Below, piece after piece: positions 35,501 through 43,149 of a DNA stretch of 64,000 nucleotides; within the stretch, counting starts at the first letter, position 1, and each line of letters opens with the position of its first letter. The position numbers and the translations under genes were made by a program. The notes beneath the pieces are model-generated. The model saw only the letters and a list, made by a program, of their open reading frames with translations, was not told the origin of the DNA and made no database searches. This DNA comes from Hirudinaria manillensis (taxonomy: Eukaryota > Annelida > Clitellata > Hirudinida > Hirudinidae): NCBI GenBank assembly GCA_034509925.1, contig CM067528.1, positions 5,538,501 through 5,602,500 on the forward strand, read 5' to 3'.

Positions 35501-38500
35501 TAAAACTTTTACTTTAAAATGAACTGCTTGTTGTGTTTGTAATGCTTTTAAAGGTTGTAACGTTTGGCACAACTTGAATGATTGCAATGATTGAACCAAC
35601 TTCACGATTGCAGTGATTGAACCAACTTCACGATTGCAGTGATTGAACCAACTTCACGATTGCAATGATTGAACCAACTTCATGATTGCAATGATTGAAC
35701 CAACTTCATGATTGCAATGATTGAACCAACTTCATGACTGCAATGATTGAACCAACTTCACGATTGCAGTGCTGGGTGCAACTTAATGATTGAGATGATC
35801 GAACCAACTTAATGATTGCAATTCAGACAGAAGTTCCGAGGAAATAATTTGCTTCCGCAACTCCCGGTTTCTTGGGTCGAAATGAATTTCCACTTTGCGA
35901 ACACTTTTTTTTTTGACGCAGAAGAATTATTTATTAATTAATTTTTATTTTTGTGTTTTAAATCAAATTCTACGTGAATTTTTATTGCTCGAGGACCTCT
36001 CGAGGTCTGAGACAATTATTTCCAATTCTCGTGAAATATTTCTTATTTCGTAGCACTGCGATTAATTATATTTCTTTCGTTCGTTCTTTCTTCATTTCGC
36101 TTCTGTGCAACCAAAAGTCCTTTCCAAAAGGTGCATTAACGGTTTCCATGACGACGAAAGAGGATGCCACATCAACTTCCTGATGCTGAAGTAATAACAC
36201 CAACAACACCAACAACGACAACAACGACGACAACAACAACTTCAACAAAATAACAATAACGTCCACGGTTGGCAAACATCTGCGCTAATTTTGACCGAAA
36301 GCCTGTTGAATCTCATTAAACATTGAAGACCTTGATTTAAATTAAATTAAAATAAAAATAATTAATTTAAATTAATCTAAAATCAACCAAAACCGACCTG
36401 GACGGACGTTTTACCGAACCCGTGATGGACTTTGTTGCGCCTCGTACTTTGGTTGAGTTTGGTGTTGTTGACATTGAATTTGTTGCTGACATTCGTCTCG
36501 TTGTCGGTCGAACTTTCAGTGGTGCTGGTCAGACTCATCCACTTCTTCGATCTTCTCTTCTTCCGTCCAACGGAGCGAAGCATGGAAGCCTCGTTCCAGG
36601 TGGATTTGAGCATCCGTGCCCTTCTGCTGAGCAGTCGTATGGTGAGACTGTAAGTGACCAACATGATGACGAATGGCACGAAGAAGGCCACCAGGGACCC
36701 GTAAACGAGGAAGTAGGGATTGAAGATGCCACATTGACCGTCGGAGTTTAAGATCTCCATTGAGTTACTCGCTCCTGTTCAATTAAAACGAACGACATGT
36801 TGATGACGATGACTATGACAACGATGACGACAACGATGATGATGATGATGAATCTCTTCTTCTCTGAATTCCGATTTTAAGTTCGATTTTGAATCTTTAA
36901 ATTGAAATTCATAATTGACATCTCTCCTGGCAGTCTTAGAGACGGCCTTAAGAAGATTAACGCATCTTCAACGCACCATGTGTCCGATTAAAAAACAAAT
37001 TCTGAAATCAGAAATTAAATTTTAAACTCACCAATGAACACCAGCGGACTGGCAAGGGTGAGCGAAAAGAGCCACACGAGGACGACCTTGACCCCGACGA
37101 CGAACTTTGACCTGTTCCTCATCTTCAAGGGGAATTTAACGCCCAGGTAGCGATCCATGGAAATTGTACACATGTGCATGATTGAAGACGTACACAAAGT
37201 CACGTCTGCAACAAGCCACGTGTTGCACAACACGACGCCCAGGGGCCAATACCCTGGAATTCGAGAGCCGAATAGGAATTCAAGGGAACCGTAATGAGAA
37301 GTATTATTTATTAACTTTAATAATATTAACTTTTAACGATAAATATAATTAATTAGTGATAATCATGATTAAATTATATATATTGTTGATAACACTTATT
37401 AATTATTAAATAATAATAATAATAATAATAATAATAATAATAATAATAATAATAATAATAATAATAATAATAATAATAATAATAAATTTCAACGTATTGG
37501 CGCTTTGAAGTTGTTTTGAAATTTTCGGTTTGTTAGGCCCGTCATTCTCCGATTATAAATTATGCATTTTAATAAATATAATTCTAATTCTTTATATCTT
37601 CAAAAGTTGAATGCTGCCATATTAGCCGATCAAAATAAACGTCGCGCGGAAATTCGTAGTGTTGTTTCCTTAAGTTATTCAAATAGTCACCAGACCGAGA
37701 CACAGTCTCAAAATGGACTATCTGAGGATTACAGGTCGAGTGTTAAAGTCAATAATTCGAAGTTAGCGAATAAAAAGCAACAGTGGACCAAGGAACAGTA
37801 TGCTGAACTGATGTGGTGTTTTTATTATGCGCAAGCTAATAAAAATGAAGGAGGAGTTGTCAAAGGAACTTATACGACGTGGAGAAGTAGAAATCCAGAG
37901 ATACATCAGAATATCAATAAGGATACTCTAGCAAACACCAGAAGATGGATTATTAACACAAAGAAATTCAGTGACATGGAACTCCAAGGCATTAAAAATC
38001 GTGCATGTCAGAACGCAGAGAGGCATCTATCAGAAACACAAACTGAAATTGTGATTGAATCGATAAATGAGGGAAAGTTTCAGTCTCCCCAGAAAGCAAT
38101 TGACTCTCTGACCATTCAGTACCCCCAAGATCCAGCAACAAATATTACTGATTTAGAACAACAAATTAAAAGTAGATTGCTTGAAAATAAACACTTGGAT
38201 TTCAATAATAGGCCAAAGCTTAACAAAGTAAGAATATGCAAGGATACCTTAGAAAAGATAAAGGCAGCTAATGAGATCTTATCCAAAATGATAAGTGGTA
38301 GGCAACTTAATATAAGCGAAATTAATGATTTAATCTATTGCTCAGCCAGTGTCATAGCTGGGGTACAGAAACCACGAGATGGCCCCGTCGGAAGGAAAGA
38401 ACCTGCATGGAAAGTACGGATCAGCAATAAAGTAGAACAGTACAGGAAGGATTTATCAATTATAAGTGAAATAAAAAAGGGTGTGGCAACAAAGAGGGTT

Positions 38501-41500: not shown

Positions 41501-43149
41501 AATAATAATAATAATAATAATAATAATAATAATAATAATAATAATAATAATAATAATAATAATAATAATAATAATAATAATAATAACAATAATAATAATA
41601 ATAATAATAATAATAATAATAATATAATAATAATAATAATAATAATAATAATAATAATAATAATAATAATAATAATAATAATATAATAATAATAATAATA
41701 ATAATAATAATAATAATAATAATAATAATAATAATAATAATAATAATATAATAATAATAACAAAAACAAGAATAATAATAATAATAATAACAACAAAAAC
41801 AAGAATAATAATAATAATAACAACAAAAATAATAATAATAATAATAATAATAAAAACAAAAACAAGAATAATAATAATAATAATAATAATAATAATAATA
41901 ATAATAATAATAATAATAATATAATAATAATAATAATAATAATAATAATAATAATAATAATAATAATAATAATAATAATAATAATAATAATAATAATAAT
42001 AATAATAATAATAATAATAATATAATAATAATAATAATAATAATAATAATAATAATAATAATAATAATAATAATAATAATAATAATAATAATAATAATAA
42101 TAATAATAATAATAATAATAATAATAATAATAACAATAATAATATATTATAATATAATAATAATAATAATAATAATAATAATAATAATAATAATAATAAT
42201 AATAATAATAATAATAATAATAATAATAATAATAATAATAATAATAATAATAATAATAATAATAATAATAATAATAGCGTTACTAGTCAATATTTGAACG
42301 AACATTTGATAAATAGTTGATTGAGCAGCGAAATTCATATTCATCAAACTCTGCACCGATTGTAAATGGTCAAACATCGTCTAAATGCCTAATGGTCTTT
42401 GAAATAAATTTTAAAATATTTTCTAAACAAATGCCTAAAAAGAACGAATCGCGAGGATATTTTATGAGCTTAAAAACCGTTCATTTGAACTTTTCAGGCA
42501 AAGTTGGGCCTCAAAAACATCTCTGCGAAGAAGCTCCGCATTTCTTGAGAAATGCCTGAAGCAATATCTCATGCCAGCTCCTTGCTTTTCGACTTTTCCG
42601 AGAATTTCGATGCACGATTTTCAAAAGCAAAAAAAAAAAATAAATAAGAAAATTAATAGGAAAATAAAAAAATAAATGAAAATAAAATTAAAGCAAAGCA
42701 TATTTCGAAAACTCTTTTTGAAAAAAAAATGACGACGGAATGTGGAAAACAGTTTTTCCAAAAAACCACAATCGCGAAGCAAATAGAATTCAATTACCAA
42801 CAAAATCTTGTAGGATGCAACAGGGCATGACGATCAGGGACACGAGGAGGTCGGCGATGGACAGGGAAACCAGGAAGTAATTCGTGACGTTCTGCAACTT
42901 CTTTTCAACGCATACGGCAACGCAGACCAAACTGTTGCCGACGACTCCAGCGACGACCAACAACAGCAGGCAGAACACGTGCCATTGCGGTTCGAAACCT
43001 TCACCGATCCATCCTTCCGTGGCCGGCAACACAACGGTCGAGTTGGAAGGAGACGAGGACGACGACGACGATGATGAAGATGAAGAAGAAGAAGATGGAA
43101 ACATCGTTATTAACGAGTACTCCAAGGTCTGGGAATTAGATTCACTCAT
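32576..43149 (-). CDS. HTR2: 5-HT2-type serotonin receptor-like GPCR, 6 exons
   Basis: This is a class A aminergic receptor, probably Gq-coupled serotonin type 2. Exons are 42798-43149, 37032-37253, 36398-36774, 33758-34443, 33145-33351 and 32576-32924, giving 730 residues. TM1 holds [13 protein letters not shown]2 [15 protein letters not shown], and TM3 has amine-binding Asp134 in [15 protein letters not shown] followed by DRY at 151-153. Cys127 and the Cys of [10 protein letters not shown] form the usual disulphide. TM5 is [21 protein letters not shown]7 is [24 protein letters not shown]3 is very long (over 300 residues). The N-tail contains 15 consecutive Ser coded by TCN repeats. TM6 reads CWSSFF where CWxPFF is usual, so the kink proline is missing. 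Insect-like 5-HT2 receptors fit best; another amine ligand is possible. Confidence 0.88.
35560..35820. repeat. 26-bp minisatellite
   Basis: There are about 10 tandem copies of a 26-bp unit of the form tgattgaaccaacttcacga plus ttgcaa/g, in the intron between receptor exons 3 and 4. Inner units are nearly identical (only C/T and A/G switches) and the end units are diverged. Confidence 0.9.
37409..37485. repeat. (TAA)n tract left of Dong-like element
   Basis: About 25 TAA units directly abut the 5' end of the retrotransposon. Together with the 3' array they are what is left of its target. Confidence 0.95.
37486..41165 (+). mobile_element. R4/Dong-clade non-LTR retrotransposon
   Basis: A 3.7-kb element of the site-specific, restriction-like-endonuclease type is bounded on both sides by TAA repeats, the known target of Dong. 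The 5' UTR is about 76 bp and the 3' UTR about 75 bp, with no poly(A); the element runs straight into (ATA)n. It sits antisense within intron 1 of the 5-HT2-like receptor gene. It is near full length but carries two frameshifts, so this copy is not autonomous as read. Confidence 0.85.
37562..41089 (+). pseudogene. Retrotransposon polyprotein (RT + RLE endonuclease), two frameshifts
   Basis: One long ORF lies in three pieces: 37562-38563, about 38560-39686 and about 39630-41089, in frames 2, 3 and 2. The N-terminal part has a Myb-like block ([18 protein letters not shown]). The reverse transcriptase follows: [25 protein letters not shown], motif [32 protein letters not shown], and catalytic YMDDL. 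After the thumb come a CCHC-type knuckle ([19 protein letters not shown]-x2-C-x7-H-x4-C) and an endonuclease core with [18 protein letters not shown] and [13 protein letters not shown]. This order is that of the R2/R4/NeSL group, and the TAA flanks favour R4/Dong. The breaks lie near 38553-38563, where TGA ends the first frame, and near 39630-39670, just after YMDDL. Apart from these, coding looks well preserved, suggesting a fairly recent insertion. Confidence 0.88.
41166..42275. repeat. Very long (TAA)n array
   Basis: About 1.1 kb of nearly pure AAT repeat follows the Dong-like 3' end, with rare interruptions. Around 41760-41870 there is an approximate 30-bp higher-order motif (caacaaaaacaagaat plus TAA units) repeated three times. 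All frames are open by composition; none codes for protein. Confidence 0.97.

Follow-up and report, generated by a model that had tools for sequence, protein, structure and literature searches.

A degenerate non-LTR retrotransposon, probably of R4/Dong type, in a TAA microsatellite within a receptor intron

The window analysed here is a 64-kb stretch of AT-rich DNA, animal as inferred from its genes, and one of these genes, which encodes a serotonin-like receptor, has an intron that is largely filled by a retrotransposon and its repeat flanks (Table 1). The minus-strand exon pieces on the two sides of this intron both match 7tm_1, and the PDB sequences closest to the one exon piece searched, among the best 60 of 317 distinct matches, are serotonin 5-HT2B receptors. 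Joined at the GT donor and CAG acceptor, the exons give a stop-free frame across the junction, in line with the first-pass annotation, which had placed the element antisense in a receptor intron. The TAA tracts and the element together account for 4,868 bp, or 88% of the intron. A second rhodopsin-type receptor is encoded at 52768-53805 on the minus strand (7tm_1, E 9.1e-12). On the same strand, a 2,047-aa open frame (21011-27154) carries a PI3/PI4-kinase domain (E 1.2e-19) with weak ATR HEAT matches and, judged by these domains, is a kinase of ATM/ATR type encoded without interruption.

The body of the element, ~3.68 kb on the plus strand, lies between two TAA stretches and lacks a poly(A) tail, its last base directly abutting TAA. 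The earlier description of both ends running into TAA thus stands. Three overlapping open pieces, between which the frame switches twice, span nearly all of the body, in agreement with the previous reading of an almost complete copy with two frameshifts. The two frame changes may reflect decay or assembly error. With two breaks in its ORF, the copy has most likely lost activity, unless the breaks are assembly errors.

Table 1. Coordinates of the receptor intron, the element and its TAA flanks within the window.
Feature	Position	Strand	Remarks
Host intron, GT...CAG, 5,544 bp	37254-42797	-	Serotonin-like receptor gene; element antisense
5' TAA tract, taken as remaining target repeat	37409-37485	+	25.7 copies, 100% matches, 77 bp
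Non-LTR retrotransposon body, 3,681 bp	37486-41166	+	Between the two TAA stretches
5' leader, 76 nt up to first ATG	37486-37561	+	
ORF piece 1, N-terminal part	37559-38563	+	37781-37993 resembles Myb by eye only
ORF piece 2, reverse transcriptase (RT)	38547-39686	+	RVT_1 match 39063-39638, YMDD 39597-39608
ORF piece 3, downstream of RT: CCHC knuckle and restriction-like endonuclease	39626-41089	+	
CCHC knuckle, C-X2-C-X8-H-X4-C	40526-40579	+	In ORF piece 3
PD...D motif of restriction-like endonuclease	40778-40849	+	In ORF piece 3
Stable RNA hairpin at/after stop codon	41085-41124	+	Candidate 3' signal for RT
3' untranslated end, no poly(A)	41090-41166	+	Adjoins TAA
3' TAA array	41167-42276	+	372 copies, 95% matches, 1.11 kb, 16 interruptions between perfect runs

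The reverse transcriptase with a YMDDL motif that had been noted from the sequence is recovered by Pfam as a significant RVT_1 match in the second ORF piece (E 1.1e-26). In the PDB, six distinct sequences match the RT at E up to 1e-5. The top three are labelled R2 (E 7.3e-23, 5.6e-21 and 8.1e-21), the fourth and fifth are labelled ‘Reverse transcriptase-like protein’ and are entries that we take to be Bombyx R2, and the last, 8c8j, is labelled ‘RNA-directed DNA polymerase’ (E 1.6e-13) and is presumably human L1. Both the CCHC knuckle and the restriction-like endonuclease of the earlier reading could be located in the third ORF piece, and this C-terminal part likewise resembles R2 proteins. Searched alone, it matches one R2 protein with a whole-sequence E of 1.1e-8 (separate stretches, 0.016 and 0.0066). 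A three-row profile that adds two relatives introduced below (L001 and L002) matches, at E up to 0.01, four distinct PDB sequences. The top one is an R2 protein with a whole-sequence E of 9.4e-14 over both matched stretches (5.7e-5 for the CCHC region and 2.7e-5 for the endonuclease). When the endonuclease end was aligned locally to R2, the score was 74, which none of 5,000 shuffles reached, the highest of them scoring 55. The predicted structure of the third piece had a mean pLDDT of 35.1 and was not used. Because the RT, CCHC and endonuclease stretches all match R2 proteins, there is good support for assigning the element, which sits in a TAA repeat, to the R2 group of restriction-like-endonuclease (RLE) retrotransposons.

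The N-terminal Myb-like block proposed previously was not recovered by sequence searches. Pfam gave no match for the N-terminal piece at E up to 1, the proposed block had no match in a PDB sequence search at E up to 10, and its resemblance to a Myb/SANT helix block is by eye only. According to excerpts of PMC7998251, the published detection of SANT/Myb domains relied on HHpred.

We searched for relatives in genome, viral and plasmid records. With the RT core as query, five loci (L001-L005) in bacterial genome records were confirmed out of 175 pattern matches; an earlier scan of genome contigs confirmed none among 13, and five scans of viral contigs confirmed none among 5, 2, 32, 270 and 74 pattern matches, respectively. 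Plasmid matches were rejected as relatives, with none of the 26 records covering >80% of the query; the 10 of these 26 that were listed are 25-26% identical, and nine of them carry a group II intron annotation, the tenth having none. Elsewhere in the window, searches with the element by blastn and tblastn gave matches at chance level only (best E 0.20 and 0.25). An open frame at 57526-58164 on the minus strand resembles, by eye, the C-terminal end of a protein from another LINE; Pfam finds no match in it at E up to 1.

L001 (positions 1-3992), from a short contig deposited as Streptomyces narbonensis, encodes a eukaryote-type RLE retrotransposon ORF of 1,131 aa that is similar to the window element in the RT (39% of 362 aligned positions) and the C-terminus (35% of 486). 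In the N-terminal piece, a further 135 aa can be aligned (24%), in a stretch that excludes the proposed Myb block. L002 (530-5727), from a contig filed under a Clostridia MAG of roe deer cecum, has two overlapping ORFs, the second of which encodes a 1,286-aa protein of an RLE retrotransposon. Both are likely to be eukaryotic contamination in bacterial assemblies. L002 is perhaps a protist LINE, and an Entamoeba-type LINE was considered for it; the excerpted text of PMC3118788 does not settle its clade. Rfam at gathering scores returned nothing on L001 and L002. A (TAA)3 occurs in L001 ~180 bases past its ORF, and TAA runs of at least four units were found in none of the five loci.

The RT tree has nine rows, namely the window element, L001-L005 (of which L003-L005 are distant rows) and three R2 proteins, the third of which, 8gh6, we take to be R2. 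The window RT groups with L001 (89/90) and then with L002 (91/98), outside the R2 rows. The same two branches receive 94 and 93 under LG+G4 in IQ-TREE and 0.93 and 0.99 in FastTree, and neither reaches the starred level of the tool. Long branches among the bacterial rows are flagged by the tool, as is an odd letter make-up of L002 and one R2 row. Holding the window RT together with the three R2 rows, and thereby a place inside R2, is rejected (AU p 2.4e-5, a test selected after inspection of a first tree). Although its RT, CCHC and endonuclease are recognizably homologous to those of R2, the element is also not R2 by insertion site, its flanks being TAA in a receptor intron rather than 28S rDNA.

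Among named systems, the closest parallel is Dong of Bombyx mori and its relatives in other animals, which belong to the R4 clade. Like the window element, Dong is an RLE non-LTR element associated with TAA repeats, and the TAA strand agrees: a primer for the Bombyx Dong 5' junction, as given in passages of PMC3774820, has TAATAATAA directly ahead of the element, which is the strand found here. In excerpts of three further papers, (TAA)n is reported to be targeted by Dong in Darwinula as well as in “most insects, mollusks and cnidarians” (PMC7998251), DongAg and DongBg are listed among the elements found in microsatellite repeats (PMC3636483), and Bombyx Dong is placed in simple repeats (PMC1291365). 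The window copy differs from Dong in its broken ORF, in the undetected Myb/SANT domain and in the HDV-like ribozyme, which was not found at its 5' end. Nematode R4 is also an RLE element, in the same clade as Dong according to parts of PMC3774820 and PMC7998251, but it goes into rRNA genes (PMC3774820 and PMC1291365, in part) and not into a TAA microsatellite. R4/Dong is the best-fitting and the likely label for the window element, based on exclusion from R2, target and layout, with a tree that lacks named R4/Dong rows. Of the original proposal of an R4/Dong-clade element in a TAA tract, an RLE element of the R2 group in a TAA repeat is well supported, and the R4/Dong part is likely by its target, its TAA strand and an RT that falls outside the R2 rows.

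Two other accounts of this element and its site deserve consideration. The tree contained no named HERO or NeSL reference either, and excerpts of PMC4640811 describe some HERO families, as well as Togen families related to NeSL, as microsatellite-specific, so an RLE clade such as these, or an unnamed one, might have taken up TAA targeting independently. The agreement of both target and TAA strand with Dong makes this distinctly unlikely. The single-ORF layout also fits R4/Dong. Even less probable is that a non-specific RLE element met a TAA tract by chance, a scenario for which EhRLE3, HERO elements and other R2-group members without specific insertion sites provide precedent (PMC3636483, in part). 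Outside the locus, plus-strand (TAA)7+ tracts make up 372 of 59,132 bases, and targeting is likely because a randomly placed 5' end would meet such a tract only ~0.6% of the time; this one copy supports TAA targeting and does not prove it.

The locus thus probably holds a degenerate, near full-length non-LTR retrotransposon of R4/Dong type, inserted into a (TAA)n microsatellite that was already present in the intron. Domains, position and flanks are observed here, and the steps of entry are modelled on R2 and Dong biology. A TAA array would have stood in the intron before the element came. The element protein most likely recognized and nicked TAA DNA, its restriction-like endonuclease cutting one strand, and the RT would then have used the cut strand as a primer for copying the RNA of the element, in target-primed reverse transcription. 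Entry inside the repeat would account for TAA at either end and for the lack of poly(A). Several observations weigh against this reading: the tree has no named R4/Dong row and its window-holding branches are unstarred, an N-terminal Myb domain was not detected, nor was the 5' ribozyme that published Dong and R4 carry, the comparison covers a single host copy, and L001 shows just (TAA)3. If the reading is correct, the locus is an ordinary case for its family, a known kind of element at a new host locus, and adds one more such locus for microsatellite-targeting retrotransposons, with an intronic TAA array used as home.

The TAA could alternatively have arrived with the element. The Drosophila I factor is an AP-endonuclease element that is not known to target TAA, unlike the window element, which has an R2-type endonuclease and TAA on both sides. 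The I factor does, however, end in TAA repeats at its 3' end, and UnaL2 ends in TGTAA repeats that are likely involved in template slippage, as described in parts of PMC3747384. By the same route, a TAA tail could have been carried on the 3' end of the element RNA, which landed in a short TAA stretch, the array then growing by RT slippage or later replication slippage. The much longer 3' array and the (TAA)3 after the ORF of L001 are consistent with this. However, the 5' side also has 25 perfect TAA units (37411-37485), and a uniformly placed break in a single 1,187-bp array would leave a shorter side of ≤77 bp with P 0.13. The 3' array has 16 interruptions in 339 counted units and perfect runs that reach 51 units; since 25 uninterrupted units have P ~0.31 at that rate, the two sides are not measurably different in purity. 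Moreover, four other TAA/TTA tracts of at least 22 units (starting at 16466, 44048, 47486 and 48822) are element-free, given that the window yielded no further copy of the element. On balance, we regard a tail supplied by the element as unlikely. RT slippage is conceivable because other LINEs end in their own repeat units, and it is unsupported as the source of this array.

The same results bear on the earlier suggestion that the element, or slippage after insertion, seeds or lengthens the repeat, which we do not uphold: the 77:1110 split is unremarkable, the purity of the two sides is not measurably different, and seeding is unneeded because other long TAA tracts in the window lack the element. 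It is very unlikely that kilobase TAA arrays are generated or extended by the element at its 3' end, from an RNA that ends in TAA and by slippage of the RT. Were it true, every insertion would enlarge the target for the next one. The locus would gain greater weight only if the creation of long TAA arrays by elements of this kind were seen across a genome-wide set. Within the 3' array there is a cluster of interruptions at ~41759-41868, three of which hold CAAAAACAAGAA and one a part of CAAAAACAAGAA, a sign of later local duplication.

RNA signals were sought at both ends of the element. Passages of PMC3774820 report that an HDV-like ribozyme in Dong and R4 RNAs (Bombyx Dong, Ascaris R4) cuts them exactly at the 5' junction. 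For the window element, Rfam gave no such ribozyme at its 5' end at E up to 10. A purpose-made HDV descriptor, applied without a positive control to starts 37480-37539, gave two weak matches only, at 37481 and 37482 (scores 10 and 9), both beginning inside the TAA tract; of 600 random starts, 2.8% gave any match and 7 scored at least 12. The fold of the 5' end is not unusually stable, with 194 of 200 shuffles at least as stable (z 1.76). The copy may be 5'-truncated or decayed.

The 85-nt 3' end as a whole has a z of only -0.54, its fold being equalled or bettered by 57 of 200 shuffles. Within the element, however, the most stable 40-nt window (-17.0 kcal/mol, rank 1 of 3,641) starts at 41085 and takes in the stop codon together with the 35 bases that follow it; across the plus strand of the whole stretch, 21 of 63,960 such windows are equally or more stable. 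By analogy with R2, whose 3' UTR serves as a signal for its RT, this hairpin may be a signal for the RT of the window element.
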